From the NCBI GenBank assembly GCA_028554795.2, contig CM068838.1, positions 89,643,944 through 89,707,943 of the forward strand: a DNA stretch of 64,000 nucleotides. Reading direction: 5' to 3'. Under the pieces are notes generated by a model. The model was not told where the DNA came from, did no database searches, and worked only from the letters and a program-made list of their open reading frames with translations. Positions 43,077 through 63,199 of this stretch are shown here, in pieces; positions within the stretch are counted from its first letter, which is position 1, and each line of letters begins with the position of its first letter. Origin of the DNA: Sinohyriopsis cumingii. Taxonomy: Eukaryota; Mollusca; Bivalvia; Unionida; Unionidae. Both the position numbers and the translations under genes were made by a program.

Positions 43077-43092
43077 GGCCCTGAAAAGGGCC
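43077..43092 (-). promoter_or_regulatory. Histone-type 3' stem-loop, minus strand (in left TIR)
   Basis: On the minus strand: AAA, then GGCCCTTTTCAGGGCC (6-bp stem, TTTC loop), CCCAT, then TCTCGAAAAGAGAT as a purine-rich downstream element 12-16 bases on. It lies about 25 bases after the stop of the minus-strand ORF 43117-43350. Confidence 0.8.
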
Positions 43093-43116
43093 TTTGGGTT
43101 TATGTTAATGCATTCA

Positions 43117-43350
43117 TTAACATAAAGGACACCGCATTGGTCTTCTTCTTGTTCTTAGGCTGCGTCTCACTGTTGGCCCGTAAATTAGCACTCTTTTCAG
43201 GCATCCTTGTCTTTCAACGTAGATCCTACGTATCCACAGGCTGGTGTTTGTCCTGTGGACAACGGTCCACTTGGATCGGACATACATGAGCAAGTCTGTC
43301 CTAAACATCATGGAAGACACAAGGGTGGATGACTCAACTGTGGTCCACAT
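43117..43350 (-). CDS. Small basic protein with histone-type 3' end (left terminal gene 1)
   Basis: A 77-residue ORF, MWTTVESSTLVSSMMFRTDL..., with an Arg-rich C-terminus (RRSLRTRRRP) ending CPLC. I know no homologue. Support for a real gene comes from signals: on the minus strand a TATAAATAA box (43395-43403) lies about 45 bases upstream, the ATG at 43350 is the first after it and has A at -3, and the stop is followed within about 25 bases by the stem-loop at 43077-43092. It is divergent from the 43570 gene and shares a 200-bp control region with CCAAT boxes. A small nucleic-acid-binding role is possible but unproven. Confidence 0.5.
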   Translation of the reverse strand: MWTTVESSTLVSSMMFRTDLLMYVRSKWTVVHRTNTSLWIRRIYVERQGCLKRVLIYGPTVRRSLRTRRRPMRCPLC

Positions 43351-43394
43351 CTTGAAGCGACGAGAACAGGTGAATCAATGCACTGAACTGCGCT

Positions 43395-43545
43395 TATTTA
43401 TAGGCAGAGGTAGGATTGAAACCGATTGAGTTCATTCACCAATCCGAACACGCGTTACAAAATTCAGTCAGCCCGCATCCAATCCGAAGAGAGCAGTCTG
43501 TGACGTCACGTAGTCTATATAGATTCGCTAGCGCTTGTGTGCAGT
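43395..43545. promoter_or_regulatory. Divergent promoter of the two left terminal genes
   Basis: Contains TATAAATAA on the minus strand (43395-43403), two CCAATCCGAA boxes on the plus strand (43439 and 43478), a perfect CRE palindrome TGACGTCA (43501-43508) and TATATAG on the plus strand (43516-43522). CCAAT plus TATA in a divergent arrangement resembles H2A/H2B histone gene pairs. Confidence 0.6.
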
Positions 43546-43569
43546 CAATCTATGCGACAGTGATTCAAC

Positions 43570-44142
43570 ATGACGGAAACTCAGAAAACGGTCCAATGGG
43601 GTGCACCAACAGGGGAGACCGCCCAAGGGAACCCGGACTTACTTTCCGAAGAGGTGAATTGGGATTTTGTGGATTTTCTCTCCTCGCAAGAATTTGTTCC
43701 GGAACCTTCGTTACCTTCTTCATTACCGCAAGTGGAGAATTTTATACAGAGACAGAAAGAAGAATTGGAGAAATTTATACAACGACAAAAGGAAGCGGAA
43801 CAAGCTTTTCTCCTACAGCAGCAAGAAGAAGAAGAGGTAAGAAAAAAACAACAGCAACAACAGCAAGAAGAAGTAGCAGCAAAGAAACAAGAGGGTGAAA
43901 ATCAAACGGTCACGGTACTGTTGGACATTTTAGCGGAGTTAAGAAGTCTGAAACAAATGTATCAGACTTCTTTATTACGACCGAAGAGAATACGACCTTC
44001 CCGAGCTAAACACGTCAACCCTGTGACTAAGCCTACCGTACCACCCTTAGTGATTTCAACCCAATCATCATCAACATTACGCAGTTCAGAAGTAGGCCTT
44101 GGCCGTGGCAAAGGCATAAGGCAGTTAAAGTTGATTGCTTAA
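43570..44142 (+). CDS. Glu/Gln-rich coiled-coil protein with histone-type 3' end (left terminal gene 2)
   Basis: 190 residues. N-terminal part MTETQKTVQWGAPTGETAQG and an acidic/aromatic stretch (EEVNWDFVDFLSSQEFVPEP), then a coiled coil of two IQRQKEE repeats and Gln runs (residues about 56-100), a Leu-rich helix (LLDILAELRSLKQMY) and a basic, Pro/Ser-rich tail. No family recognised. The TATA at 43516 is 54 bases before the ATG. The stop is followed after about 30 bases by the stem-loop at 44171-44186. An AATAAA at 44408 could be a backup poly(A) site. The layout (acidic start, coiled coil, basic tail) would fit a regulator or DNA-bound protein; this is a guess. Confidence 0.75.
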   Translation: MTETQKTVQWGAPTGETAQGNPDLLSEEVNWDFVDFLSSQEFVPEPSLPSSLPQVENFIQRQKEELEKFIQRQKEAEQAFLLQQQEEEEVRKKQQQQQQEEVAAKKQEGENQTVTVLLDILAELRSLKQMYQTSLLRPKRIRPSRAKHVNPVTKPTVPPLVISTQSSSTLRSSEVGLGRGKGIRQLKLIA

Positions 44143-44170
44143 ACTCACCCCTAAACCATAAAGAGAAAAA

Positions 44171-44186
44171 GGCCCTTTTCAGGGCC
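44171..44186 (+). promoter_or_regulatory. Histone-type 3' stem-loop after the 43570 gene
   Basis: AGAGAAAAA then GGCCCTTTTCAGGGCC (44171-44186) then ACCCA, followed by TTTCTCGAAAAGAAAT (44194-44209). Flanks, stem length, UUUC loop and purine-rich element all fit the metazoan histone mRNA 3' processing signal. Confidence 0.85.
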
Positions 44187-44229
44187 ACCCACATTTCTCG
44201 AAAAGAAATACAATTTCAATTTGCCAATA

Positions 44230-44442
44230 ACTCAAAAAAAAAAAAAAAACCCACCCATTTTACCCTTATAGTACTTGTCTGTGTATGAGTGCGTGAGTGT
44301 ACGTTCTTATTTTAAAATCAAAACTAAAAGACTCTCACCTTATATCATTAATTTATTCTTTTATCCATTTTTTACAATCCAATTCACAATTCACAACACA
44401 ACACTTTAATAAAAAGTTCATTGACTTCTTCTTTCTCCTTGT
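44230..44442. promoter_or_regulatory. Intergenic 3' region with poly(A) signals for both strands
   Basis: AATAAA on the plus strand at 44408-44413, and TTTATT (AATAAA on the minus strand) at 44352-44357. The second is about 90 bases past the stop of the minus-strand zinc-knuckle gene, which therefore seems to use poly(A), unlike its neighbour. Confidence 0.5.
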
Positions 44443-44916
44443 TTAGTCTCTCTGTTTTTTGAATTTCTTCACCGTCTTTTCCTCATTTTCTTCCCTTCTT
44501 CTTTTCTTCTTCTCCTGTTTCTTTCCCTCTTGTAAATAGAATTGTCTTTTTTCTTCCTCTTCTTCCTCTGAAGAATCCCTCTCTTCTTCCGAAGAATCCC
44601 TCTCTTCTTCTGAAGAATCCCTCTTTTCTTCTGACTCCTCTTGTTTCTTTTTTGGGCAATCTGGAGACCAATGTCCTTTTTCTTTACAATAATAACAGGT
44701 ATCTTGACTTTTGTCTTTTTTAGTCCCTGTTTTTGTTCTTTTCTGACGGTCTGGACACTCTGAAGACCAATGCCCTTTCTTCTGACAGATATAGCAAGTA
44801 TCTTGACTTTTATCTCTAAAGGAAGGAGAGTAGTCCGTAGGCTGGTCTGAAGAGAATTTTCTAATGACCCCTCGCAAAGCTCTGACGAAACGTTCCATCT
44901 GGTTAGTCTCTTCCAT
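44443..44916 (-). CDS. Double CCHC zinc-knuckle protein
   Basis: 157 residues from the ATG at 44916 (MEETNQMERFVRALRG). An upstream in-frame ATG at 44964 is too close to the TATA box (44971-44979, minus strand) to be used. Two zinc knuckles, CYICQKKGHWSSEC (about residues 40-53) and CYYCKEKGHWSPDC (about 72-85), both C-x2-C-x4-H-x4-C. Then comes a string of RDSSEEE repeats and a highly basic C-terminus (KKRRREEN...KKFKKQRD). CCHC knuckles bind single-stranded RNA or DNA. The gene is divergent from polB. A role in RNA or genome handling is inferred; a link with the stem-loop RNAs would be worth testing. Confidence 0.8.
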   Translation of the reverse strand: MEETNQMERFVRALRGVIRKFSSDQPTDYSPSFRDKSQDTCYICQKKGHWSSECPDRQKRTKTGTKKDKSQDTCYYCKEKGHWSPDCPKKKQEESEEKRDSSEEERDSSEEERDSSEEEEEEKRQFYLQEGKKQEKKKRRREENEEKTVKKFKKQRD

Positions 44917-44970
44917 CGTTGTGCTCGGCTTGAGAGTGAAATGAATAGTGAAAGGACAAGACACACACCC

Positions 44971-45003
44971 TTTTATATACGCTGGTCTGCTATGACTATA
45001 AAG
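44971..45003. promoter_or_regulatory. Back-to-back TATA boxes between zinc-knuckle gene and polB
   Basis: TATATAAAA on the minus strand at 44971-44979 and TATAAAG on the plus strand at 44997-45003, separated by 17 bases. They drive divergent transcripts starting about 30 bases out on each side. Confidence 0.65.
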
Positions 45004-45050
45004 TAGCTCATGGTGTTTGAACTTGAGTCATTTGACTTTTTGCTTTCAAG

Positions 45051-48000
45051 ATGAAACGATCTAATTCATTCGAGAAGAAAGAAGAAGAAGAAAGTAAGAG
45101 GCAGAAACGTGATCTATCGCCTCGTACCAGGGCTGAAATCTTGGCACAAATTCATGCCAGTGATTTTGAAGAGGACATGAGTGAACCAGAATCCGAACCC
45201 TCTAAACCAAGTTCACCACCCTTAGTCAACCCTGAAAAGTACTATTCCATTCGAGAGACGGAAAAGCGCTCCTCTAGAAAATTTAGAACCACGGCTTACA
45301 AATACACAGTGAAGTTTAAAGATTTCAAGGCTGAAGTGCCGTTAGAGAAAGCAGAAGTGTTCATCACTGAGGTGTGGGATTCTTTGCTCACTGCACTCAA
45401 GCAACAATGTCAACCCAAAGAAGACGATCGCTTGAGACTTTCCATACAACACGACGGTTTGAAATCCCCTGTTTGGATCGAGTTTAGCACCCCGGCAGAA
45501 TTGACCGCTTCCAAAGTCATGGACAAGATTCAACACGTACAACAATCTAATGACCAGTTTGACATCACCGATGGAAAAGCCACACTGGACATGACCCACG
45601 TCTCTCCTCCTCAAGGGACAGGACGCAAAAAGATGTTATTGGTGGACGACCTTCGCAACACCAAAACAAGTCTCGTCCGAATTAACAACCCTCATGACCA
45701 GATGTGTTTAGCCCGTGCCGTCGTGGTGGGACGAACCTATGCCAACAAGAACGACACGGTAGAATGGAAAAGAACCTGGAAAACTATTCAACAATCCGAC
45801 CGAGCCAAACAACGAAACGAAGCAGAAATCGTGTTACTACAAGCTGGCTTGTCCAAAGACACACCCTGTGGCATTCCTGAGATGCAAAAATTGCAAGATG
45901 CACTAGCTCCACGCTACACCTTGAAAGTGCACCCTCAAGAAATGCGTGGGCCTCTGTTGTTTCGAGGCCAAGAATTTAAGGACGGAAAATACATTCATGT
46001 CTATTATAACGATGGCCATTTCGATACCATTACCAGTATCACTGGATTCCTAGGATACGGTTATTATTGTGAGAAATGTGATTATGGTTATAACAATCGA
46101 GAGCAACACAAGCATTGTGGATCGAAATGCCCAGGATGTTTGGCCTCTCCACCCTGTCTGAGCGAAGAACCAGTGCCTTGTTCAACTTGTCTGCGCACGT
46201 TTGTCAGCCCTACCTGTTACCAACAACATTTGAAAACACAAGGTTCACAGAAGAAATGTGCTTGTCAACTCCTGAGATTGTGCTCTACGTGTGGACAAGG
46301 CATACTTACCAACAATGCCAAGGCACACGTATGTCGAGGAAAGAAAAAATGTCACATTTGTCACCACATCGTGGACTTGGAACACCAATGTTACGTGCAA
46401 AAATACCAACCCCCACCAGAGAAAGAGGACGGTCACAAGAAGAAAGGCAATTTCATCTTTTTCGATTTCGAATGCATGCAAGAGACTGGCATTCACATCC
46501 CTAATTTCTGCGTGGCTCATCGAGCGTTCGAGAAGTGCATTCAAGAACCTATCTTCAGTCATTGCCCTCACTGCAGCAAGATTCCTGGAGGACGTGAAAA
46601 AATCTTTCGGGGACCGAACACGTTAGCCGATTTTGCCCAATGGGTCTTAAACCCCGTCGACAAGACGTGGAGCCAAGAGGACATCGAACGTTACCGAGAT
46701 TGTCATCGTCATGCCACAGTGATGGCTCACAATTTTTCCGGATACGATGGACAGTTTCTTCTCAGATACTATACGGAACAAGGCACCGAGCGTCCTAAAG
46801 TGACTTTGAACGGAGCCAAAATCATTTTCATGCAAGTGGGACAAGTACAGTTTAAAGACTCGATGAGCTATTTGGCCATGCCTTTGAGTCGAATGCCTAA
46901 AACGTTTGGAATGACAGAAATGGCTAAAGGGTACTTTCCACACTTTTTCAATACGGAAGCCAATCAACACGCCGTTCTACCCCATTTGCCTGAGGCTCAC
47001 TATTACGACCCCGACAACATGCGTACCGAACAACGAGAAGCTTTCTACGCTTGGTACCAGGCTCACGCCTCGGACCCTTTCGACTTTCAGGAAGAAATGC
47101 TAAAGTATTGTCGTTCCGACGTGGACATTTTACGGCGTTGCTGTGGAAAATTTCGAGAACTGTTCATGGAACACGGAGGGGTCGATCCTTTGAAAGAAGC
47201 TTGCACCATTGCCAAAGCGTGTTCCCTAGTGTATCGACAACGATTCATGCCTGAAAACACCGTGGCTGTCATCAGCCCTCAAACGACCCACTTTGTCAAA
47301 CGTCAATACTCGGTCAAAGCCCTACGTTGGTTACATTACTTGTGCGACAAGGAAGACAAGTGGATTCAGCATGCCCGCAACGGAGGGGGCGAAAAGACCA
47401 TCGGAACGTATTCGGTCGATGGCTGGGACTTAGAAAACCCCAAGATCGTGTACGAGTTTAACGGTTGCTTATTTCACGGATGTCCTGTTTGTTACCCTGA
47501 CCGTGGCACTAAAAATCAGTTTTTGCAACGAACCATGGAAGACTTGTACCAGGACACTTGTCAGCGACGCCTAAAGTTAGAACAGCAAGGATACCAAGTG
47601 GTGGAAATGTGGGAACACGAGTACGATCACCGTATGAAAACCGATCCCGAGTTTAAACGCCTCGTGGAAAGTTACGAGTTCATGGACCCGCTGAACCCGA
47701 GGGATAGTTTGTACGGAGGAAGGACCAATGCCACCTGTTTGCTGTACCAAGCCGACGAAGAGAAAGGAGAAGAAATCAAATACTTGGACGTGTGTTCGCT
47801 GTATCCCTACGTGTGCAAATAGTGTCGCTTTCCTGTAGGGCACCCACAATTGTTAACGGAACACATCGACCTGAAAAACATTCGACAATACGAAGGCTTG
47901 ATCAAGTGTAAAGTTTTGCCTCCCACGAACCTATACCATCCCGTCTTACCTCACCATTGTCAAGGCAAACTGATGTTTCCCTTGTGCCGTACTTGTGCCG

Positions 48001-49091
48001 AAACGTGCAACCAAGACCAGCCTTGTCATCACAGCCAGGAAGAACGGGCCTTGACGGGAACCTGGGTCAGCGTAGAATTGTTCAAAGCTTTGGACGTGGG
48101 ATACCAACTGTTAGAAGTGTACGAAATTTGTCACTTTCCCAAGACACAACAATACCACAAGGGTGATCCCAGTCAGAAAGGCATTTTCGCAGACTACGTG
48201 GATGCCTTTTTGAAACTGAAGCAAGACGCCAGCGGCTATCCTTCCTGGTGTCACACTCCCGAAGACCAAATAAAATTCAAAGAGAAATACTACGAACAAG
48301 AAGGCATCACTTTAGACCACATCGAGAAAAACGAAGGCAGGCGATCGTTTGCCAAAGTGATGTTAAATTGCTTGTGGGGTAAAATGGCACAACGATCGTC
48401 TTTACCCAAGACGGAATATTTGACAGAACCTTCCCGCTACTTCCAGATGATTCACGACAAAACCAAATACATGAAACACGTGGACGTCGTTCGAGAGAAT
48501 TTGATCTTGGTCAATTACGAAGAAGATCTGGACTTTGTACAAGACGACCCTTTTGGAAATGTCATCATTGCGGCTTACGTGACAGCTCATGCTCGCTTAA
48601 AATTGTACGAAGCTTTAGAACTGTTAGAAGAACGCGTCCTGTACTTTGACACGGACAGTTGCATTTACATCCATCACCCGATTCAACAATACCCTGACAT
48701 CGAAGGAGACCGTTTAGGAGCCTGGACCGACGAGCATCCCGACGACAAGATTCTAAATTTCGTTAGTGGCGGTCCCAAAAATTACGGCTACGAATACCGG
48801 GACAAACAAGGAGAAGTGCACACGACGTGCAAAGTGAAAGGACTGACTCTGAATTATCGTACCAGTCGAGTGGCCAACTTTGGGGTATTGAAAGAAGCCT
48901 TGCAATCGGGAGAGGATGGAAACTTTAAAGTGACCACCTATCAACCGAACAAGATTGTACGTTTACCTACTCACCACATCGTCAGTCGACCCTTGGAAAA
49001 AGTCTATCAAATTGTATACCAGAAGCGAGTGCGACTTCCCAATCATTTCACCTTACCGTATGGACATGTTGGTATAAAACATTGGTTGTAA
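45051..49091 (+). CDS. polB: Protein-primed family B DNA polymerase, interrupted by one in-frame TAG
   Basis: Replicates the element. Two frames, 45051-47822 (923 codons) and 47850-49091, lie in the same reading frame and are separated only by TAG at 47820 and nine codons. N-terminal domain with a KR-rich start and CLARAVVVG block, Cys-rich zinc-finger region (about residues 335-450), Exo I FFDFEC (about 472), Exo II HNFSGYDGQFLL (about 560), Exo III YCRSDVDIL (about 687), EFNGCLFHGCP (about 805), motif A DVCSLYPYV (about 914). After the stop come motif B (KVMLNCLWGK) and motif C (LYFDTDSCIY). All catalytic motifs are present. The stop lies just after motif A and would remove motifs B and C. 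TATA at 44997, ATG at 45051. The gene may be inactive in this copy, the stop may be a sequence error, or less likely it may be read through. Confidence 0.93.
47820..47822 (+). other. In-frame TAG inside polB
   Basis: Codon following KYLDVCSLYPYVCK. The frame continues open on both sides with conserved polymerase sequence (CRFPVGHP directly after). It is the only stop in 4 kb. Confidence 0.9.
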
Positions 49092-49110
49092 GAGGATAGT
49101 TACCAGAAAG

Positions 49111-49569
49111 ATGACTTCGCCACAGCAAGAATCGAGTGAGAAACCCGATGAGAACTCCAAGTTCAAGCCCTACCATTTTCCAGTCTTCTTACCTGACTAT
49201 TGTGATTGTGCCCGTCGATTGGACACGTTTCAGAAATGGCCTACGGATAGGGAAGGATTACCTTCTTCGCATGTTTTAGCTAGAACAGGATTTGTCTACT
49301 TGGGACCTGAGTCAGGATTGGGATACGAGGTACAGTGTTTTGCTTGCGGACTGAAGTTACGAATGGATCTATGTATCTATAAAGATTCAGCTATTCTGGA
49401 ACATACTCGATGGTCTCCGCACTGCCCTTACCTTTCTATGGCCTTTCCACCCATCACACTACGGTACAATGTTGACGGTACCTTAGAGACGGTACCTTCC
49501 AGAACAAGACATAAAAAACGTAAAAAAGGAAAGATGTACAAGCTGGAGACTGCATTGAGACTAGTATAA
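49111..49569 (+). CDS. Single-BIR (IAP-like) protein 1
   Basis: 152 residues. One BIR domain at about residues 28-105: RLDTFQKWPTD, LARTGFVYLGP, CFACGLKL (Cys pair) and EHTRWSPHCPYL (His and Cys), the C-x2-C-x16-H-x6-C zinc pattern. No RING or CARD. A basic KKRKKGKM tail follows. BIR domains bind caspases or IAP antagonists, so the likely role is to keep the host cell alive during replication (inference; baculovirus IAPs are the precedent). Its TATA box (49073-49079) is inside the end of polB, 32 bases before the ATG. Confidence 0.88.
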   Translation: MTSPQQESSEKPDENSKFKPYHFPVFLPDYCDCARRLDTFQKWPTDREGLPSSHVLARTGFVYLGPESGLGYEVQCFACGLKLRMDLCIYKDSAILEHTRWSPHCPYLSMAFPPITLRYNVDGTLETVPSRTRHKKRKKGKMYKLETALRLV

Positions 49570-49628
49570 AAAGGGGGCTATGGTCAAGATCGATAGTTCA
49601 TTGTGACTACCAAGACCGAGCAAACAAG

Positions 49629-50365
49629 ATGAATACTTTGAAAGAGACATCGTTCCAGTTTGGGGATTGTAAAAAAGTTGTATCCTCCTCTAGTGTGACT
49701 AATACTGGATGGATAAGACCCAGACATTGCGACGGAAAATGTCCGGAAGGAAACTGCGATTGTCCATGTGGTTACCATTGTAATTGCGTAACGAGTTTGC
49801 AGACGAGTGCGATTGTGAGCCTTGCGATGGATACGATGCTGTACCTTGTGACCTGAGCGATGCCGTAAAGCATCATGGGAACTTTGTTCTCACTGCCCCT
49901 ATCATGGAAAGTGATGCTGTGCGTGTCAAACCTGAGGGATGCGAAAGCGATGCCGCTCGTCCTCTTAGACATTTTACCGGGTTTAAAGGGGAATGTCGAC
50001 CTTCACGTTTACCTCCCTACGGATGTCATCCAGCCCTGAGCAAACTCCTGTTCATGTCACCCAACCCTCATCGAAACGAACCTGTGAAAGACGAATATTC
50101 GTTTCCTGTGCGTTTGTCGGAATACTGCGACTTTGAAAATCGTCTTCAATCGTTCAAAGGAAAATGGCCAAAGTATCTGGGAGGACCGACCCCTGAAGAA
50201 TTAGCCAGAGCCGGATTTTTCTACTTGGGCGAAGGAGATAAAGTCAAGTGCTTCAGTTGCGGTGTGTCACTTCACCACTGGGAACCGCAAGATTCGGCCT
50301 ACGTTGAACATGCTCGATGGTCACCGAATTGTCATTACTTACCTTTAGTGGGACCAAGACATTGA
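49629..50365 (+). pseudogene. Cys-rich plus BIR (IAP-like) protein 2, frame change inside
   Basis: TATAAAAAG at 49565, ATG at 49629. The first frame (to 49856) encodes a Cys/Gly cluster (CDGKCPEGNCDCPCGYHCNC). The same style of cluster (CDCEPCDGYDAVPC) and then a full BIR domain (RLQSFKGKWP, LARAGFFYLGE, KCFSCGVSLHHW, EHARWSPNC) lie in the frame offset by -1, open to TGA at 50363. The frames must switch between about 49784 and 49856. Without the first ATG, the second frame's first ATG is near 49903 and would still give a complete BIR domain. Either a one-base indel, a sequence error, or a start at 49903. Likely paralogue of the 49111 gene. Confidence 0.7.
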
Positions 50366-50393
50366 AGTAACTTCTTACCATAATAATCTGTTC

Positions 50394-50849: not shown

Positions 50850-50861
50850 TATGACCTATTC

Positions 50862-52047: not shown

Positions 52048-52060
52048 TAAAAAAACATTC

Positions 52061-55085: not shown

Positions 55086-55097
55086 CAAACCAACAAA

Positions 55098-56210
55098 ATG
55101 GAAAAAGTCTTAGCCAGCATTTACTACGATCCCTCGCATCCTGCAGGTTACGCAGGAGTTCAAAAATTGTATCGTGCTGCCAAAACGCGACTGAAAAGTC
55201 TCCGTTTACCTCAAGTGCAACGATGGTTACAAGAACAAGCTACCTACACTTTACACAAACCCATTCGACGCAAGTTTGCCAGAAGTCGCACCCGAGTGGA
55301 AGGCATCGATCATCAATGGCAAGCCGATTTAGCCGATGTCTCTCATTTGGCCAGCTACAATCGTGGTTACAAATATTTGTTTTGTGTCATCGACGTCTTT
55401 TCCAAATTTGCCTGGGTCGTGCCCTTGACTTCCAAATCGAGCAGCGAGTTAGTGCGAGCCCTGCAACGGGTGTTGAAACAAAGCGGTCGTCACCCTCTTC
55501 GATGGCAAACGGACAAAGGCACCGAATTTCTGAACCAAGCTTTCCAAAAAGAATTAAAGAAACGTGACATTCATTTTTTTACCACCGAGAATCCCGAAAC
55601 CAAAGCCAGCATCGTGGAACGTTTTCAACGCACTTTGAAAGAACGCATGTGGAAATATTTTACGCATCACCACACTCTGAAGTACATCGACATCTTACCG
55701 CACCTGGTGCAAGCGTACAACCAATCTTACCATCGAAGCATCGGACGTGCCCCGCAAGACGTGACTCCCGACAACGAAGTGCTGGTGTTTGAGCGTCTGT
55801 TTGGTACGTCCCCGACGAGGGCTGTCCCCAAGAAAAGTGGAGAGTTGGCCGTAGGAGATTGGGTGCGCATTGGCAAAACCAAACGCACTTTCGACAAAGG
55901 TTACTTACCTAACTGGACGACCGAATTGTTTCGCGTCACTGGACGAGTGCATGGCCGTCATCCTGCCGTCTATAAATTGGAAGACATGAACGGAGAAGTA
56001 CTCAAAGGAACGTTTTATTTGCCCGAGTTACAACGTGTCACCAAAAAAGAAGACGACGTGTACGACATCGAAAGCATTCTCGAACGCAGAACCCGTAAAG
56101 TGGGCAAACGACGTGTCAAAGAAGTCAAAGTACGTTGGAAAGGATATCCACCCAGTTTCGATTCTTGGATCGACGCTTCGCAAGTCATCGACTATAAAAG
56201 GAAGAAGTGA
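55098..56210 (+). CDS. int: rve-family (retroviral-like) integrase with C-terminal chromodomain
   Basis: Inserts the element. 370 residues. N-terminal Polinton helix region (YYDPSHPAGYAGVQKLYRAA, RRWLQEQ-like, YTLHKPIRR), RNase H-like core with the triad D (WQADLADVSHL, about residue 76), D (RWQTDKGTEF, about 138) and E (SIVERFQRTLK, about 173), then a beta-barrel and a chromodomain at about residues 315-365 (DDVYDIESILERR, VKVRWKGYPPSFDSWI). All catalytic residues are present. The chromodomain could steer insertion to methylated histone H3 chromatin, which fits the landing site inside a dead Polinton (inference). No TATA box was seen. Confidence 0.96.
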   Translation: MEKVLASIYYDPSHPAGYAGVQKLYRAAKTRLKSLRLPQVQRWLQEQATYTLHKPIRRKFARSRTRVEGIDHQWQADLADVSHLASYNRGYKYLFCVIDVFSKFAWVVPLTSKSSSELVRALQRVLKQSGRHPLRWQTDKGTEFLNQAFQKELKKRDIHFFTTENPETKASIVERFQRTLKERMWKYFTHHHTLKYIDILPHLVQAYNQSYHRSIGRAPQDVTPDNEVLVFERLFGTSPTRAVPKKSGELAVGDWVRIGKTKRTFDKGYLPNWTTELFRVTGRVHGRHPAVYKLEDMNGEVLKGTFYLPELQRVTKKEDDVYDIESILERRTRKVGKRRVKEVKVRWKGYPPSFDSWIDASQVIDYKRKK

Positions 56211-56215
56211 CCAGC

Positions 56216-56626
56216 ATGCCCTTTCACACAGCAGACGCAGCTACGTCGACCACTCCTTCTTCCCCTAGTTCTTCTGTGCAAGATTTACAAAAACAACCCT
56301 TGTGGGTGTGGTGTGGAGAACGTGTGCCTAAAACGCAAATCGTCTTTTTCTGCCAAATCTTCGTGGTGTATTGTGTCATCGGGGCAGCCATCGCCAATTT
56401 GAGTTTGCAACAAGGAGACAAACAATTGTGGACCATTTTATTGAGCAGTTGCATCGGTTACCTGCTTCCTAATCCCTCCCTGAAATTCTCCTCGAACGGG
56501 AACCTTGTGTCCAGTGCCAGTGTCAGTCACCAGTCCAACCACAATCAGAACCCCATTTTGGGCGGAGACACGCCTCTGACGTCCAGTAATATCCCCTCGG
56601 ACAGCCACAGAACTCTGGAATTATGA
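56216..56626 (+). CDS. Two-helix Polinton membrane protein
   Basis: 136 residues from the ATG at 56216. Ser/Thr-rich N-terminus, then VPKTQIVFFCQIFVVYCVIG with a first membrane helix, and LWTILLSSCIGYLLPNPSLK as a second. The VPK.QI.FF.Q...(I/V)Y.V and LW..LLSS.(I/L)GYLLPNP blocks are strongly conserved in a membrane protein I recall next to the penton-like gene in many Polintons. TATAAAAG at 56193 is close (about 16 bases before the ATG). Its stop overlaps the next ATG by four bases (ATGA). Function unknown; an inner-membrane or fusion role is possible. Confidence 0.8.
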   Translation: MPFHTADAATSTTPSSPSSSVQDLQKQPLWVWCGERVPKTQIVFFCQIFVVYCVIGAAIANLSLQQGDKQLWTILLSSCIGYLLPNPSLKFSSNGNLVSSASVSHQSNHNQNPILGGDTPLTSSNIPSDSHRTLEL

Positions 56627-57561
56627 GTCACCAAAACCAATTTTACTTAACCTTACCCAGTGACAGTTCCATGGAGGTGTTTCCCAACAACACGTTGTGC
56701 TGTTACACGGCCAAATTACCTCAAGCCATCCCCTTAGATCACGAAGCCCATTGGGAAGTGGCTTTGGTAGAAATGATTCACCCGACCCAAGTCCACAATG
56801 TCATTGCCAATCAAAATTTTTTTACGGTGCAAGTTCATGACGAGCAAGTGCAACAGTGGATGGATACCCATAGCAAATATCCCCATAAAAAACCTAATAA
56901 AGAAAATCCAAAGTGGACCGACTATCAGTTGTTCATTCCCCCAGGTTATTATTTTAGTGGTCAACATTTGGTCAACACCATAGCCACCAGGTTTAATGGT
57001 GTGTTTCTGAAAGCTTTGGAAAGTACCAAAAAAAGTGTCACCCTAGAGTACCACAAAACAGCTCGTCGCTTCCTGATGAAATTTCCTGAGGGGTCTAAAA
57101 TAATATCTTTCTTATTTTGTCCTGAATTGTTTGACATGTTGGGCGGTGACATGGAGATGAGGAAGAAAGTAGAAAAAGAAAAAGGCGAATTACTAGTCAT
57201 TTCTGACAACGAGAATTTTGCCAAGTATTTTCGTTTCCCGGTAGAACTGAACCAAGGACTGAATTTGATGTTTGTGTACTCCGATGTGGTGGAGTACAAT
57301 GTGGTGGGACACACCTCCGTGCCGTTACTGCGTGTCATTCCTTTCAAAGTCGATTCTGCCGCAAACGCTGACGAGGAAGGTGGAAACACTTACCACGTTC
57401 ACCGCGAATTTGTCCATCCTCACTATTTACCGGTCAGCAAGTCGTATTTGGACACGGTCAACATTACTATAAAAGGAGATTTGGGACAAAATATTCCATT
57501 CACCAAAGGAAAAGTCACGGTGAAACTCCATTTTCGAAAACGGTTCTCTCACGACTCGTAA
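56623..57561 (+). CDS. Minor capsid protein (penton-like, single jelly-roll)
   Basis: Forms capsid vertices. 312 residues. Starts MSHQNQFYLTLPSDSSMEVF, then PNNTLCCYTAKLPQAIPL and HWEVALVEMIHP, the typical start of the Polinton/adintovirus penton-like family (FY.TLPS.SS...FP.NTL..F...L...I.L....WEV.L.E). The middle has IPPGYYFSGQHLVNTI; the end has IPFTKGKVTVKLHFRKR. It is intact. It overlaps the membrane-protein stop by four bases and comes seven bases before the pVI-like gene. Confidence 0.93.
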   Translation: MSHQNQFYLTLPSDSSMEVFPNNTLCCYTAKLPQAIPLDHEAHWEVALVEMIHPTQVHNVIANQNFFTVQVHDEQVQQWMDTHSKYPHKKPNKENPKWTDYQLFIPPGYYFSGQHLVNTIATRFNGVFLKALESTKKSVTLEYHKTARRFLMKFPEGSKIISFLFCPELFDMLGGDMEMRKKVEKEKGELLVISDNENFAKYFRFPVELNQGLNLMFVYSDVVEYNVVGHTSVPLLRVIPFKVDSAANADEEGGNTYHVHREFVHPHYLPVSKSYLDTVNITIKGDLGQNIPFTKGKVTVKLHFRKRFSHDS

Positions 57562-57568
57562 GTAAGTC

Positions 57569-57985
57569 ATGTATCCAGTGTACCAAGGGGTGGCACGACA
57601 GCGAGGACACGGTTTAGGAGACATGTTAAAATCGGCCTTTCGTTCGGTGGCCCCGGTGTTGAAACCGATGGTGACACGCGGATTGCACGCCTTGAAAGAT
57701 GCGGCACTGACGCAAGGCAAAGAATTTCTCCAAAATGTCATCATCGACAAACAAAACCCTAAAGAAGCCTTCATGAGGGCTGGTAAAAATGTCTTGCTAC
57801 AAACGGGCAAAGACATTTTAGGCCGACGAGACACACCTATAAATGCCCTGCACGCTACCGAGTCAGGCATTCAGCAAGGACAAGGCAGAAAGAGACGACG
57901 AAGAAAATACCCTTTCACCAGACTTCAAGCGAGAAAGGCCAAGAAAAGAAGAACGGTTCGAGACTTAGACGTTTTCGATTATTGA
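57569..57985 (+). CDS. pVI-like minor capsid protein
   Basis: 138 residues. MYPVYQGVARQRGHGLGDML, then an amphipathic helix (KSAFRSVAPVLKPMV) and a long Ala/Lys-rich helix; the C-terminus is very basic (GRKRRRRKYPF, KAKKRRT). The G.GLGD-(M/L)-(L/F) start is the signature of adenovirus pVI-type endosome-lytic proteins in Polintons. TATAAAAGG at 57468 lies inside the previous gene, with no ATG between its expected start site and 57569. It is probably cleaved by the element's protease (LxGG-like or GxGx sites not clearly seen). Confidence 0.85.
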   Translation: MYPVYQGVARQRGHGLGDMLKSAFRSVAPVLKPMVTRGLHALKDAALTQGKEFLQNVIIDKQNPKEAFMRAGKNVLLQTGKDILGRRDTPINALHATESGIQQGQGRKRRRRKYPFTRLQARKAKKRRTVRDLDVFDY

Positions 57986-58001
57986 AACACAGCAACAAAA
58001 A

Positions 58002-59334
58002 ATGATGCACCGAGAGTCTTGCGCCTGTTCCAAGACGGAACTGGATCTGTTTGCCATGCCCCCCACGATGATGACCATGCAAGAATCCCAATGGGTGGAA
58101 TTTCACCCCGTCTCCTCACTGACCGATTCCGCTCCCATCGAGTTTGAAATCAAAGGACAGCCCGAAGATTACATCGATCTGAATAGCAGTTACCTATACT
58201 TGAAAGTAAAAGTAATCGAACCACCCAACGCTAACCTAGACGCTGATGAAGCAGTAGCTCCCGTCAATAATTTCATGCATTCTTTGTTTAGCGAAGTTGA
58301 CTTGTACTTGAATAACAAACTGGTCAGCAGCAACATGGATACTTACCCTTATCGAGCGTACCTGGAAAATCTCTTGACGTACGGAAAAGAAGCCAAGAAC
58401 ACTCATCTGGATGCTTGCGTGGTATGGAAACCTGACCAAGCGACTAAGTTCAGCAGAATTACACTTGCTGGGGGGGGGGGGGGATAATCCAAATACAACG
58501 GGATTTGTAGAACGACGAAAGAAAATTGCTGAAAGTCGTAGTTTAGAACTAATGGATCGCTTGCATTTGGACATGTGGTTGCAAGAAAAGTATTTGCTGA
58601 ACGGGGTGGATGTCCGCCTGAGACTGAATCGCAGCAGTGCCGCTTTCCATTTGATGGCTGCAGAAAATTCCACTTACAAAACCATCATCCAAGAAGCCAG
58701 ACTTTACGTGCGTCGCGTAGAAGTGTTGCCTAAAGTAGGTAACGACATCAGTCAGACGTTGAGCAGAACGACCGCCAAGTACCCGATCCGACGCGTAGAA
58801 GTGAAAACCTTCACCATTCCTGCTGGACAGCGATCCATGATCGAAGATCATCTGTTCCAAGGACAGTTACCCAAACGTTTGATTGTTGGTATCGTCAAGA
58901 ATTCAGCCTTCAACGGAGCCTACCACGAAAATCCTTTTGAGTTTCAACATTACAAAGTGTCCAAGATTGAAGTCAGTCGCGACGGAAAGACCTTGTGTAC
59001 CCGGCCTTTCGAGCCTAAATTTGAGCCCGAGAAGAATTACTTGAGATCGTACTTGTCCCTGTACGAAGCCACGGGACAGTTAGGAACCAACACCAGTCAC
59101 GGTATTACGTACGAGGATTATGCAGGAGGCTATGCTTTGTGGGCTTTTGATTTCACTCCAGACCAAGGCAGCGACGAGGGACATTTCCACCCTATAAAAT
59201 CTGGCCAGATTCGTGTGGAAATTCAGTTTGCGAGTCCACTACCCGCAGAAAACACGGTGAACGTCATCCTGTATGCAGAATTCGATAATACGATAGAAAT
59301 CAACAGTTTGAGAGAAGTCATTCTAGATTACTAG
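58002..59334 (+). pseudogene. Major capsid protein (hexon-like, double jelly-roll), frame change in a G-run
   Basis: Builds the capsid faces. The first frame (58002-58487) has LDLFAMPPTMMTMQESQWVE, PEDYIDLNSSYLYLKVKV, APVNNFMHSLFSEVDLYLN and YPYRAYLENLLTYGKEA, all canonical for the N-terminal jelly-roll. The second frame (open to 59334) carries VDVRLRLNRSSAAFHLM, RRVEVLPKVGNDIS, LFQGQLPKRLIVGIV, LSLYEATGQLGTN and the C-terminal VNVILYAEFDNTIEI. The switch between the two frames, which differ by one base, lies in a run of 14 G (58470-58483). All domains are present on both sides, so the break is recent or a sequencing artefact. TATAAAT at 57838 lies in the pVI-like gene. Confidence 0.9.
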
Positions 59335-59339
59335 AAACC

Positions 59340-59822
59340 ATGGAAGACTGTTATCCCTCTTTACCTAGTGGAGAAACTTTGGACATGAAATGTGAGGAGA
59401 CTGTGGAAGAAGAAGTGATCGTAATGAAATCGAGATGGCCAGAACAAGAAGCCCATTTAGTCTCCTGTTTTGCCAAACACTTGGTCGACAAAATGACGGA
59501 ATTGATCAAGAAAAATTGCTATGGATGTCAAAACGATCATCCCAGTCAAATTCAACACGATAAATGCCTAATGTTAAGTCAAGAAGAAAAATTGGACGAG
59601 TATCTGGACGAAGCTTGGAGTCTCATCTCGAACAAAGACGTGTTGCACCAGTGGTATAAAGACTTGCGTGAACATTCTTGTCCACCATTAACCACTCAAG
59701 AGATCCATCGTATCGAAGCTCTCCTGAATCAGAGTGACGAAACAGAACGAATAACCGTTTATTCGTCAGACATTTTCAAGCAAAAAGTCAGAATCGAATT
59801 GACAACTTATTATTACCTGTGA
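59340..59822 (+). CDS. Conserved Polinton protein (CYGC motif)
   Basis: 160 residues. Acidic N-terminus (MEDCYPSLPSGETLDMKCEE), then a helical domain with KKNCYGCQNDHPSQIQHDKC, which probably binds zinc, and LSQEEKLDEYLDEAWSL. I recall CYGC.....SQ..H.CL as a recurring motif in Polinton-linked proteins of unknown function. It sits six bases after the capsid gene, and its TATA (TATAAAA, 59193-59199) is inside the capsid gene. An upstream ATG near 59272 may lower translation. Confidence 0.7.
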   Translation: MEDCYPSLPSGETLDMKCEETVEEEVIVMKSRWPEQEAHLVSCFAKHLVDKMTELIKKNCYGCQNDHPSQIQHDKCLMLSQEEKLDEYLDEAWSLISNKDVLHQWYKDLREHSCPPLTTQEIHRIEALLNQSDETERITVYSSDIFKQKVRIELTTYYYL

Positions 59823-59849
59823 AGAAAAAAAAAACACACACACAAATCA

Positions 59850-60410
59850 ATGGATACCTGGGAACTTTATTACCTTTTGAACCACAGTTCGTATACGGCT
59901 TCTTGGAATCCTGTCGTCTGTGCTAAAGATGAACTCCCTCATCGCAAACCTAAAGACCATCAAGCTTACGTGATCAACACGGACGACAGTCATCTCCCAG
60001 GAACCCACTGGGTAGCCGTCTACTTTCCTCAAGAAGGATGTGTGGAATATTTCGATTCGTACGGATTGCCCCCTTTGGAAGACGATATCATCGACTTTAT
60101 GAGAAGAAATGCTCAAACCACCCGATTCAATAACGTGAAATTACAAGGCACAGATTCTTTGGTGTGTGGACAGTACTGTGTGTATTTTCTGCATCATCGC
60201 AGCCTGGGCTATTCCTTAGAACATTTAGTGACTCATTTTGATCCTCGTTCTTCTGCTAGAAACGATGTGAAAGTAGATAGATGGTTTTGTGACCATTATG
60301 CTTATCTTTTGTCTCAAGCTAGGAAACGTAGTGTCCATCAATGGCCTAATGATTTCCAACAGTGGAAATCACAGTTTCATTCACAACGTTGTCAGCCTTG
60401 TTCAAAGTAG
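59850..60410 (+). CDS. Adenain-like maturation protease (C5/Ulp1 fold)
   Basis: Cleaves capsid and core precursors. 186 residues. His in LPGTHWVAVYF (H53), acidic partner in CVEYFDSYGLPPLEDD (about residue 70), and Cys in SLVCGQYCVYFLHH (C106), with spacing close to adenovirus adenain (H54, E71, C122). The C-terminus adds basic, aromatic sequence (WPNDFQQWKSQF). Intact. TATAAA at 59655 lies inside the CYGC gene, with no ATG between its expected start site and 59850. Poly(A) signal AATAAA at 60514. Confidence 0.93.
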   Translation: MDTWELYYLLNHSSYTASWNPVVCAKDELPHRKPKDHQAYVINTDDSHLPGTHWVAVYFPQEGCVEYFDSYGLPPLEDDIIDFMRRNAQTTRFNNVKLQGTDSLVCGQYCVYFLHHRSLGYSLEHLVTHFDPRSSARNDVKVDRWFCDHYAYLLSQARKRSVHQWPNDFQQWKSQFHSQRCQPCSK

Positions 60411-60513
60411 ATTGTCTATTGAGATTTGAAAAAAATTGTTTGATGTTATAGTGTTGGATTATTGTTAAAAAATGTTAGAAATGTTGTTGTTGTTTAGTGT
60501 TAAGTGATTTTTG

Positions 60514-60519
60514 AATAAA
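60514..60519 (+). terminator. Poly(A) signal AATAAA after the protease gene
   Basis: TTGAATAAAAAATG followed by a TGTTGTGTTTTG GU-rich stretch, a normal poly(A) arrangement, about 100 bases after the protease stop. It contrasts with the stem-loop ends of the next three genes. Confidence 0.7.
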
Positions 60520-60645
60520 AAATGTTGTGTTTTGAAAAAATGTCTTTGTCTTTTGTTTAGCTAGAAGAATGTTGGATTGATGCTCTTTGATTTCTTACTA
60601 TCCCTCTCATGACACTCACTAAACGTTGCGGCTCGAAAACCGTGT

Positions 60646-60684
60646 GGGGATGTTTTCCTTCACGTCCGCGCTTTGACTTTAAGA
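60646..60684 (+). promoter_or_regulatory. Terminal-gene promoter module, copy 1
   Basis: GGGGATGTTTTCC then TTCACGTCCGCGCTTT (60646-60674) followed by a weak TATA-like TTTAAGAA (60677-60684). ATG of the next gene is at 60738. The same module recurs at 61523, 62293 (partial) and 62362. Confidence 0.75.
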
Positions 60685-60737
60685 ACCGGGGTTGTTTCCA
60701 GTCTAACCATCCACTGTCGACTCATCCTCCTACGAAG

Positions 60738-61100
60738 ATGTGTTCCAAACTAGCTAAGCTCAACGAAGCCTACGTGAATTTGCATAGGGTCAGACACAGT
60801 CTGATACCGAAGCCAGAAGAAATAGAGAATGTGAGAATGTTAAAAATCACTGAAGACCTGATAGAAGAGCTCTTCAGAGAAGAAATGAACAGGGAAAAAG
60901 AAGAATGGACAGAGAAGTACAGACTTCAGAGACAGCAGCAACAGCAGCAGCAACAGCAGCAGCAGCAGCAGCAACCTGAAGCTGACAGAGGCTTTGTCGA
61001 TTGTCGTATCGACACCAAAGAGTTCTTCTTCTCTTTCCGAAGAAGCAGACCTATCGCCAGAAAGTCTATCCTCAGAGGACATCGCATTCTTAGAAACTAA
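60738..61100 (+). CDS. Coiled-coil/polyQ protein with histone-type 3' end (right terminal gene 1)
   Basis: 120 residues from the ATG at 60738 (AAGATG, A at -3); the longer frame from 60609 would start upstream of the promoter module. MCSKLAKLNEAYVNLHRVRH starts a helical region; LIEELFREEMNREKEEW leads into a Gln run encoded by CAG/CAA (about 60941-60974). The C-terminus is Arg-rich (RRSRPIARKSILRGHRILRN). No family recognised. The stem-loop at 61129-61144 follows the stop by about 30 bases. Confidence 0.75.
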   Translation: MCSKLAKLNEAYVNLHRVRHSLIPKPEEIENVRMLKITEDLIEELFREEMNREKEEWTEKYRLQRQQQQQQQQQQQQQQPEADRGFVDCRIDTKEFFFSFRRSRPIARKSILRGHRILRN

Positions 61101-61128
61101 AAAAGAATGCCATAGCAAACAAAAAAAC

Positions 61129-61144
61129 AGCCCTTTTCAGGGCT
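61129..61144 (+). promoter_or_regulatory. Histone-type 3' stem-loop after right terminal gene 1
   Basis: AAAAAAAC, AGCCCTTTTCAGGGCT (6-bp stem, TTTC loop), ACCCA, then CTCTAGAAAAGAAAT about 6-20 bases further. The first pair is A-T instead of G-C; the second pair, which SLBP needs, is still G-C. A backup AATAAA is at 61209-61214. Confidence 0.85.
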
Positions 61145-61214
61145 ACCCAATACTCTAGAAAAGAAATAACCATCAATTTGCCAATGTGTATAGGTAGAGT
61201 AGTGTGAAAATAAA

Positions 61215-61520
61215 CACTAACTCTTTTTCAAAAAATGTGAGGGTATGTGTTTGTGTATAGGATTGTGTGTTTGTGTGTTTGTAAGTGATAAAGTAGGTTG
61301 GTGTGGATAGTAGATTAAAATTATGTCTTTTTGGTGTTTGAGGTGTATATTTGGGGTTAGATTGGATTGCTTTGCTTATGTGGATAGTCTATTGAAGTGA
61401 TTTATAAAAAATTTTACAATAGTGATGGGTAGCATAAAAAAGTGAGTGAGTGTTTCTTTTAGGTCCGCGCGTTGTTGTTGTTTCTTGGTCATGATCTAGG
61501 CAAGATGAATTTTATGTTTT
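61215..61520. other. TG-rich intergenic spacer, upstream part of the module at 61523
   Basis: GTGTTTGTGTG-rich sequence similar to 62110-62290. Its end (GTCCGCGCG near 61463, TCATGATCTAGG near 61489) is shared with 62311-62345, so the promoter repeat is about 100 bases long. Confidence 0.6.
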
Positions 61521-61522
61521 TA

Positions 61523-61560
61523 GGGGATGTTTTCCTTCACGTCCGCGCTTTCAGTATAAA
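61523..61560 (+). promoter_or_regulatory. Terminal-gene promoter module, copy 2
   Basis: GGGGATGTTTTCC/TTCACGTCCGCGCTTT at 61523-61551, then TATAAA at 61555-61560. The upstream AAGATGAATTTTATGTTTTT is also shared with copy 4. Confidence 0.85.
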
Positions 61561-61613
61561 TTGAAACTCGTTCGGCAGTCCAGCTACCCTTGTTGATTGA
61601 TCAACACCAAAAA

Positions 61614-61982
61614 ATGAACACGAGACTGGAGAAACTGTTGGAACTTCATGTGCATCTGGAATATGCCAGGCGCATATTAAATGAACTGGCCGCGGAAGCC
61701 ATTGTCGAGGAGGGAAGGATAAGAGAGGAGGAAAGAAGAAACAAAGAAGAGGAGGAGAGAAGATATAAAGAAGAAGAGGAAAGAAGATACAAAGAGGAGG
61801 AGAGAAGATACAAAGAAGAGGAGGAGGAAAAGGAGAGAAGAAAAAATTTCAGAATCCCAGAGAGCGGAAATTGGGATTCTGAAGCGACATATCCTGCCTC
61901 TGCTCTCTCCCCCCAAAAGGTAAAAAGTAACTGGGGGATAAGATGTGTATGTGGCGCCAGGCCTGGAAGGTGCCACCATTAA
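61614..61982 (+). CDS. Glu/Lys-repeat coiled-coil protein with histone-type 3' end (right terminal gene 2)
   Basis: 122 residues from the ATG at 61614 (AAAATG); TATA at 61555. MNTRLEKLLELHVHLEYARR and INELAAEAIVEEG-like helix, then tandem EEERRYKEEEE repeats, and a tail with SGNWDSEATYPASAL and Cys/Arg pairs (CVCGARPGRCHH). No family recognised. Same plan as the next gene: 40-residue helical head, then charged repeats. The stem-loop at 62012-62027 follows the stop by about 30 bases. Confidence 0.72.
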   Translation: MNTRLEKLLELHVHLEYARRILNELAAEAIVEEGRIREEERRNKEEEERRYKEEEERRYKEEERRYKEEEEEKERRKNFRIPESGNWDSEATYPASALSPQKVKSNWGIRCVCGARPGRCHH

Positions 61983-62011
61983 CCAGGTGTCCATGAAGTT
62001 CCAAACAAAAC

Positions 62012-62027
62012 AGCCCTTTTCAGGGCT
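62012..62027 (+). promoter_or_regulatory. Histone-type 3' stem-loop after right terminal gene 2
   Basis: CAAAAC, AGCCCTTTTCAGGGCT, ACCCA, then CTCTAGAAAAGAAAT (62036-62050). Nearly identical to the copy at 61129, including about 40 bases on each side. Confidence 0.85.
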
Positions 62028-62292
62028 ACCCAATACTCTAGAAAAGAAATAACGATCGATTTGCCAATGTGTGTAGGTAGAGTAGTGTGAATATAAACAC
62101 TAACTCTTTATTAATAGTGGAAGTGTATGTGTTTGTGTGTTTGTGTTTGTAAATGTTGAAGTAAGTTTGTGTGTTTGTGTTTGTAAATGCTGAAGTAAGT
62201 TTGTGCGAATAGTAGATTATGGGTTTATTTATTGATTCTTAGCGTATGTAGAGAGTATAGTTGTGGTTATATTATATGAAATGAGAAAGTAG

Positions 62293-62401
62293 GGGGATGT
62301 TTTCCTTCACGTACGCGCGATGTTAGGTCATGATCTAGGTAAGATGAATTTTATGTTTTTAGGGGATGTTTTCCTTCACGTCCGCGCTTTCACTATAAGA
62401 A
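62293..62401 (+). promoter_or_regulatory. Terminal-gene promoter module, copies 3 and 4
   Basis: A partial copy (GGGGATGTTTTCC with TTCACGTACGCGCG, 62293-62320) is followed by a TCATGATCTAGG spacer and a full copy at 62362-62390, then TATAAGAA (62394-62401). Confidence 0.8.
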
Positions 62402-62448
62402 CCCACAGTGTTCGTTGTTCAAACCATTCTGCAAAGAATAAAAAGAAG

Positions 62449-62799
62449 ATGGCGTCAAACCAAATGGACAAAATACAAACCTTGCAAGACGTTTTAGACA
62501 ACTTAGGAATAATGGAACAGATGCTAATAAGACTCGTTGAAGACCATTATTCCTATAGTCCCCATCGTGTAAAGATGGAAATTAATAACTTAAGAAAAGC
62601 AAAGGACAAGATTAGTGGTGTCATGAAAGAGATAAAGGAGGAGAAGGAGGATGAAGAGGAAAGAATAAGAATACGCAAATGGAACGAAAAAATTGAAAAA
62701 GAAGAAGAAAATGAAAAGAGGAAGAAAGAAGAGGAGGAAGAGAAGAAAGAAGAGGAGGAGAAGAAAAAAAAAGAAAGGGAAGAAGAGTGTAGGAGATAA
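62449..62799 (+). CDS. Charged coiled-coil protein with histone-type 3' end (right terminal gene 3)
   Basis: 116 residues from the ATG at 62449 (AGATGG); the longer frame from 62320 begins inside the promoter module. MASNQMDKIQTLQDVLDNLG, then a helical head of about 60 residues (IMEQMLIRLVEDHYSYSPHR, INNLRKAKDKISGVMKEI) and a Glu/Lys-rich coiled coil to the end. The stem-loop at 62856-62871 is 57 bases past the stop and lies inside the right TIR. Function unknown. Confidence 0.75.
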   Translation: MASNQMDKIQTLQDVLDNLGIMEQMLIRLVEDHYSYSPHRVKMEINNLRKAKDKISGVMKEIKEEKEDEEERIRIRKWNEKIEKEEENEKRKKEEEEEKKEEEEKKKKEREEECRR

Positions 62800-62846
62800 A
62801 ATAAGAACTTGGTGGAGAAAAAGAAGAAATTAGAAGAAGAAGAAGA

Positions 62847-63199
62847 AAACCCAAAGGCCCTTTTCAGGGCCCCCATATTTCTCGAAAAGAGATAGCCTTT
62901 CCATTGCCTACCCCTTTTTTTAAATTTAAATTTAAATTTTTAAATCTAAAAAAATTTTTTTTTAAAAAAAAAATCCCATATTCAATTCCCCTTGACGCTA
63001 GACAGTCCCACGATTTATTCCCATGTTAAATTCCCCTTGACGCTAGATTGTCCCACGATTTATTCCCATGTTAAATTCCCCTTGACGCTAGATTGTCCCA
63101 CGATTTTTCTCCATGTTAATTTTCCATTGACGCCAGATTGTCCCAAGGGGTTCTGTAATGCTAATTCCCATTGACGCTAGGGTATCCCACTTCACTACT
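62847..63199 (+). repeat. Right terminal inverted repeat
   Basis: Reverse complement of 42745-43101, with about one substitution in the third 45-bp unit and different A/T homopolymer lengths. Ends CTTCACTACT. Confidence 0.95.
62856..62871 (+). promoter_or_regulatory. Histone-type 3' stem-loop in right TIR
   Basis: ACCCAAA, GGCCCTTTTCAGGGCC, CCCAT, then TCTCGAAAAGAGATA. Same as the left TIR copy; here it ends right terminal gene 3. Confidence 0.82.

Follow-up and report, generated by a model that had tools for sequence, protein, structure and literature searches.

Stem-loops behind the end genes of a Polinton

The window analysed here, a 64,000-nt stretch of contig CM068838.1 of the bivalve Sinohyriopsis cumingii, contains a Polinton element of 20,455 bp (positions 42745..63199, plus strand), recognised by its terminal inverted repeats, target-site duplication and gene content. 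The Polinton/Maverick group is marked by a B-type DNA polymerase (PolB), an integrase, a packaging-type ATPase, terminal inverted repeats and a 6-bp target-site duplication, and all of these are present in the element. The repeats occupy 42745..43101 (plus strand) and 62847..63199 (minus strand), identical 6-bp flanks lie on either side (42739-42744 and 63200-63205), and the genes encode a viral B-type DNA polymerase, an integrase with a chromodomain, a packaging-type (Pox_A32-type) ATPase, two BIR-domain proteins and a zinc-knuckle protein. Five open reading frames (ORFs) at the two ends of the element, named Lt1, L1, R1, R2 and R3, are each followed by a hairpin resembling the 3′ stem-loop of replication-dependent histone mRNAs; the left terminal repeat encloses the minus-strand stem-loop and the right one encloses the right-most.

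At the left end, Lt1 reads outward (43117..43350, minus strand; a 77-aa frame with no family assigned) and L1 reads inward (43570..44142, plus strand; 190 aa). The right end carries R1 (60609..61100; 163 aa from the first ATG), R2 (61614..61982; 122 aa) and R3 (62449..62799; 116 aa from this ATG, 159 aa from 62320), all on the plus strand. We compared each ORF with other genomic copies, which had been picked by their hairpin, using a simple pairwise count against the window copy that skipped gaps and stops and kept alignments covering more than half of the ORF. Mean uncorrected ratios of nonsynonymous to synonymous differences per site (pN/pS) were 0.15 for Lt1 (23 alignments in 22 stretches, 2 with stops), 0.56 for L1 (22 copies, 4 with stops), 0.20 for R1 (12 copies, 2 with stops), 0.32 for R2 (13 copies, 2 with stops) and 0.14 for R3 (8 copies, 1 with stops), at mean pS values of up to 0.48 and individual values of up to 0.84 in Lt1. 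These ratios point to five real coding genes, with L1 the weakest case.

None of the products appears to be a histone, as the preliminary description of this DNA had said: the four plus-strand proteins and a 63-aa part of Lt1 gave no Pfam histone match at E ≤ 0.01. R2 and R3 have sub-threshold Pfam matches to MAP7 and TAF4, respectively (the latter 16.4 bits against a cut-off of 33). Twenty homologues of L1 are present among database proteins, every one on a contig of 925 to 2,286 bp. One of them, P0046 (67% identity), continues beyond the usual end of the protein into WPISGPPTSLEKRYYVNCQF, and the window frame, read past the L1 stop through the hairpin and its downstream element, gives RPFSGPPTFLEKKYNFNLPI; judging from this protein, the DNA encoding P0046 would carry a hairpin and downstream element like those of L1.

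The stem-loops lie at 43077..43092 behind Lt1 (minus strand) and, on the plus strand, at 44171..44186 behind L1, 61129..61144 behind R1, 62012..62027 behind R2 and 62856..62871 behind R3, in the places and orientations first described. They begin 24, 28, 28, 29 and 56 nt after the stop codons. A scan of the window for this hairpin with up to three mismatches returned these five sites and nothing else, and 100 dinucleotide shuffles of the sequence yielded a mean of 0.67 matches and a maximum of 3, so that none held five. Each hairpin is followed by the core AAAAGA of a purine-rich element like the histone downstream element, which starts 13 nt past the hairpin in the two terminal-repeat copies (Lt1, 43058..43063, minus strand; R3, 62885..62890) and 14 nt past it at the other three sites (L1, 44201..44206; R1, 61159..61164; R2, 62042..62047, all on the plus strand like that of R3), and ACCCA stands 3′ of the hairpin at three sites, both features as anticipated. 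In a 24-kb search all five sites matched the Rfam histone 3′ stem-loop model (RF00032), which describes a hairpin with a 6-bp stem and a 4-nt loop, at E ≤ 2.4e-5, with 32.2 bits for Lt1, 41.2 bits for L1 (match at 44166), 31.0 bits for R1 (match at 61124), 31.0 bits for R2 (match at 62007) and 32.2 bits for R3.

The stem-loops divide the end genes of the Polinton from its core genes. A hairpin lies within 250 nt downstream of all five end ORFs and of none of the 20 core ORFs, a list that counts both parts of the polymerase (Fisher p = 1.9e-5, taking the five end genes as independent). Neither AATAAA nor ATTAAA occurs within 250 nt of the stop codon in four of the five end genes. An AATAAA at 60514..60519 (plus strand) lies 104 nt past the last core gene, the protease-like one, at the end of the rightward core cluster; among core ORFs, AATAAA follows within 250 nt only this gene, the zinc-knuckle gene and a small ORF at 51540-51863, and since the remaining 17 lack it, AATAAA is no general mark of core genes.

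On their 5′ sides, R1 to R3 have in common the repeat GGGGATGTTTTCCTTCACGTCCGCGC, which looks like a promoter element shared by the three genes. This 26-bp sequence lies at 60646..60671 (plus strand), with further copies, identical or 96% identical, at 61523, 62293 and 62362, and a TATAA or CTTTAA stretch follows three of the four. Because the copy at 60646 falls inside the R1 ORF as drawn, R1 may begin at a later ATG.

Host histone 3′ ends and other copies of the element

We compared the five sites with the histone genes of the 2.905-Gb assembly that holds the window. Its histone arrays have a repeat of about 8.27 kb containing H3, H4, H2B, H2A and H1 (150 matches scored of 662 candidates), and the hairpins at the 3′ ends of these genes are GGCCCTTTTTAGGGCC for H3 and H4, GGCCCTTTTCAGGGCC for H2B, GGCCCTTTTAAGGGCC for H2A and GGTCCTTTTCAGGACC for H1. 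All five histone genes carry AAAAGA or AAAAGG 14 to 15 nt past the hairpin; in H4 an additional, earlier AAAAGA stands 3 nt past it, besides that at 14 nt. The 12-mer CTCTAGAAAAGA is found without a single change in host H2B and at the R1 and R2 sites. A tandem array of divergent H2B alone was also seen (C1:5073000-5080500); its unit measures about 1.85 kb and includes a hairpin and downstream element. Among the 120 listed of 542 database matches to host H1, those that carry a name come almost entirely from molluscs.

We aligned six host histone 3′ ends and trained a covariance model on them alone, leaving out all Polinton sequence. It found exactly five strong matches in the window, namely the stem-loops behind L1 and R1 (58.7 bits each), R2 (49.2 bits), R3 (48.3 bits) and Lt1 (47.1 bits); the next best match scored 17.4 bits. 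As a negative control we used 31 contigs (1 viral, 30 prokaryote) picked for having the hairpin core with AAAAGA 8 to 30 nt on. The best score there was 25.6 bits, leaving a gap of more than 20 bits between the five Polinton sites and chance look-alikes.

The H2B form of the hairpin, GGCCCTTTTCAGGGCC, occurs exactly 34,230 times in the 2.9 Gb of the genome, as against 0 times for its reversed control. Among the 100 matches listed, all in the first 5.9 Mb of C1, 28 pairs about 1.08 kb apart correspond to left ends of the element, 21 of which have a further such site 14 to 23 kb off, and the H2B array accounts for 7 matches. The Polinton family thus appears to be massively amplified, with left ends on the order of ten thousand by a rough extrapolation from this one chromosome end.

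For conservation we drew a sample of 39 stretches, in whose choice the downstream element played no part. Nineteen are element-end stretches: a left-end pair is present in 18 of them, and the remaining one (L042) has two right ends that face each other. The other 20 were chosen as right ends, of which 4 proved to be left ends, 3 have a terminal-repeat site only and 13 have R1/R2-type sites (25 in all). At up to two mismatches these stretches hold 89 hairpins, 59 in the exact form used for finding them and 30 not picked by their hairpin. AAAAGA stands 14 to 15 nt past the hairpin at 55 of the 59 exact-form sites and at all 30 others (85/89 overall). In ungapped columns of the 30 unpicked sites, identity reaches 0.96 for the hairpin and 0.93 for AAAAGA, compared with 0.49 for the 5′ flank, although the hairpin figure is not unbiased, since these sites still had to be recognisable as hairpins.

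Stem pairing was analysed in 18 chosen sites, 17 of them distinct (6 host, 12 Polinton), against 500 shuffles. Bases are paired in 99.0% of cells and the covariation score is 0.154, neither of which was reached in any shuffle; two of the six stem pairs changed on both sides (G-C to A-U and C-G to U-A), and pairing falls to 68% or less when the partner strand is slid out of register. In two old copies of the Polinton right end that were met without using the hairpin (72 to 76% identical to the window), the hairpin is damaged in one (L112) and intact in the other (L113).

Searches for relatives elsewhere returned little. In IMG/VR, a PolB fragment, the PolB alignment and the L1 alignment found no relative, and the hairpin-plus-element pattern found a single phage-like contig, with the hairpin between genes and without an Rfam match; the GGCTC form of the pattern found none there. 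In a prokaryote genome collection, the hairpin followed by AAAAGA occurred in 30 stretches with one hit each, compared with five in one 20-kb element here. As none of these searches reaches other animal Polintons, the breadth of the signal beyond this genome is to be read from the L1 protein homologues alone.

Two further observations concern the same sites. A third common element, CAATTTGCC-like, lies at 44217-44225, 61174-61182, 62057-62065 and 62901-62908, and it ends 18 to 19 nt past AAAAGA in 73 of 76 Polinton sites checked; host H2A has a look-alike at a comparable position (CAATTTTGCC), and other histones have looser ones. It may be part of a U7 contact or of another processing signal. 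Separately, one stretch has a hairpin (L041:2535-2550) with CCCGAAAAGA directly behind it, after short open frames and adjoining a Polinton left end; it may mark an end gene from a different family of elements.

Proposed maturation of the end-gene mRNAs

Histone mRNAs are regarded as the only protein-coding mRNAs of animals to end in a stem-loop instead of poly(A) (PMC6303110). The Polinton end genes resemble replication-dependent histone genes in hairpin type, A-rich 5′ flank, purine-rich element at 13 to 15 nt and closeness to the stop codon; they differ in being non-histone genes on a mobile, virus-like element, with two copies of the signal inside terminal inverted repeats. Among molluscs, the Lucina pectinata histone genes likewise have a palindrome near the stop codon (PMC6210712), although those genes are histones and purine-rich elements are described there near only some of the palindromes. 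The element in the window otherwise shares with known Polinton/Maverick elements and adintoviruses a B-type polymerase, chromodomain integrase, packaging-type ATPase, terminal inverted repeats and 6-bp duplication, to which a sub-threshold match to an adenovirus-type protease may be added, and is set apart from them by the histone-type 3′ ends of its end genes. Our full-text and title/abstract searches, which did not cover subscription papers or outside preprints, found no report of histone-type stem-loops in Polintons. One review of plant transposons (PMC10794571) came up as mentioning stem-loops, Polintons, histones and polyadenylation, and the passages of PMC10294476 consulted refer to Mavericks in molluscs in general terms only.

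Going by these sequence comparisons, we consider it very probable that the five end genes carry complete, host-matched histone 3′ processing signals and that their pre-mRNAs are bound by SLBP and cut by the U7 small nuclear ribonucleoprotein (snRNP). Each signal would consist of the hairpin, a short cleavage spacer and a U7-type downstream element. The fixed spacing of 13 to 15 nt between hairpin and AAAAGA leads us to propose that host SLBP would bind the hairpin and host U7 snRNP would cut between it and the downstream element, and the arrangement suggests histone-type products without a poly(A) tail, which would be made and translated mainly during host DNA replication. The core genes for replication, integration, packaging and other functions lack this signal. 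The element could benefit by timing its accessory genes to a replicating nucleus.

More broadly, a mollusc Polinton lineage with thousands of copies has probably taken over the maturation of host histone mRNAs, so that its end-gene mRNAs would be S-phase, poly(A)-less and SLBP-translated, coupled like a clock to host DNA replication. No protein-coding genes other than those for histones would have been known until now to rely on the complete SLBP/U7 pathway. If this is correct, a virus-like element would break the rule that histone mRNAs alone end in a stem-loop and would provide a natural experiment on SLBP and U7 recognition outside histone genes. It would also explain in simple terms how gene expression in a self-replicating transposon is timed to host S phase, and poly(A)-selected RNA sequencing would miss the end-gene transcripts, making such elements seem silent.

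Several results weigh against this interpretation. Four of the five sites, at 31.0 to 32.2 bits, fall under the Rfam gathering score of 34 bits, which only L1 passes. The preliminary description had claimed the full histone-type signal on non-histone genes and had itself named scores below threshold as a reason to reject it; formally that outcome holds for four sites, while the match to host histones, the fixed spacing, the covariation and the division between end and core genes speak strongly for the claim. We did not use the gathering score as the sole criterion, since the host's own histone 3′ ends reach only 35.0 to 39.4 bits with RF00032 and the cut-off is therefore a poor yardstick here. 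The number of independent cases is also smaller than five: the hairpins at 43077 and 62856 are mirror copies within the terminal inverted repeat, and 61121-61231 and 62004-62114 are tandem duplicates (94% identical) with a common upstream region, so that the five stem-loops amount to about three independent sites, and we reject reading them as five independent events. Covariation is thin: 16 of the 500 shuffles also reached two pairs changed on both sides, and the 3 pair types seen do not exceed what shuffles give. The DNA 3′ of AAAAGA is fairly conserved too (0.74 to 0.76 in the 30 unpicked sites and 0.81 to 0.84 in the AGCCC subset), and the contrast in conservation is thus mainly with the 5′ flank. 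Finally, an AATAAA stands 65 nt past the hairpin of R1, which makes polyadenylated read-through possible for this gene.

The host factors themselves were not recovered by our searches. A search for host U7 with Rfam RF00066 gave 0 hits, with scoring that covered 65 of 801,960 candidates, and a six-frame genome search for the SLBP domain gave 0 hits but ignored introns and is uninformative on that account. A U7-type pattern, TCTTTTCTAG...Sm, had 14 hits in the genome compared with 8 for its reversed control, and a looser pattern had 749 compared with 541. The nine candidates that we opened were either Polinton sequence (7/9) or weak (2/9): two from the stricter pattern proved to be the antisense strand of Polinton right-end regions, 72 to 76% identical to that of the window, and, of the seven taken from 100 listed matches of the looser pattern, five correspond to the integrase region of the Polinton in the window; the last two (L120 and L121) are sub-threshold U7 matches of 21.5 and 15.0 bits. 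Indirect support for pairing with U7 comes from the identity of the Polinton downstream elements with those of the host histone genes.

Four other explanations are far less probable. The palindromes might function at the DNA level, serving replication or integration at the ends of the element as binding sites or cruciforms, and their likeness to histone hairpins would then be incidental. In favour of this, two of the five are part of the terminal inverted repeats and none is far from an end; the other three, however, are not in the repeats, all five are sense-oriented 24 to 56 nt past a conserved ORF with AAAAGA at a fixed spacing, and a role as DNA does not predict flanks and a downstream element that match those of host histone genes, which leaves this explanation very unlikely. 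We give equally little weight to the idea that the sites are captured host histone 3′ ends hitch-hiking without function. Such capture would fit both the signal, in essence the 3′ end of a host histone gene, and the damaged hairpin in one of the two old copies; hairpin and AAAAGA nevertheless persist despite the divergence of copies (pS up to 0.84 in Lt1), the 5′ flank has drifted to a column identity of 0.49 compared with 0.96 for the hairpin at sites not picked by it, the stem changes are compensatory, and the frame in which P0046, the L1 homologue of 67% identity, runs past the usual end fits the presence of this hairpin and downstream element there.

Slightly less probable again is a hairpin that only stabilises or translates ordinary polyadenylated mRNAs, without U7 cleavage. 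The AATAAA behind the R1 hairpin fits this explanation, which would on the other hand make the downstream element needless, yet the spacing of AAAAGA is kept in 85 of 89 sites, and in the other four end genes the 250 nt past the stop codon contain neither AATAAA nor ATTAAA. The least credible explanation, to which we assign almost no weight and which the sequence evidence refutes as far as it is able to, is that the hairpins arose by chance or are ordinary terminator-like ones. Single cases of a hairpin followed by AAAAGA are seen in bacteria and one phage-like contig, as against five sites that no shuffle of the window reproduces, a score gap of more than 20 bits to the look-alikes and 34,230 genome-wide copies where the reversed control has none. 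SLBP binding and U7 cleavage of the end-gene transcripts is the reading we prefer.

Other features of the element and its surroundings

The remaining genes of the Polinton show several further features. The polymerase gene has an in-frame TAG at 47820-47822, which was not read through. A double jelly-roll capsid and an adenovirus-type protease are further marks of the Polinton/Maverick group. The protein encoded at 59850-60410 has a sub-threshold Pfam match to an adenovirus-type protease (E = 0.0084; 16.2 bits against a cut-off of 21.3), and a Pfam scan of the product of 58411-59334 returned no match. The two genes with BIR (inhibitor of apoptosis) domains lie at 49111-49569 and 49904-50365, and the zinc-knuckle (CCHC) protein gene (44443-44916, minus strand) is on the strand opposite to the core genes. 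Judged by eye, the Polinton may sit among older Polinton-like or viral fragments, which would include an ORF with a Walker A motif at 41090-41689 (minus strand) and the sequence at 63200-64000. Elsewhere in the window, outside the Polinton, an Rfam tRNA match lies at 24170-24226 (minus strand; 29.3 bits, just at the gathering score).

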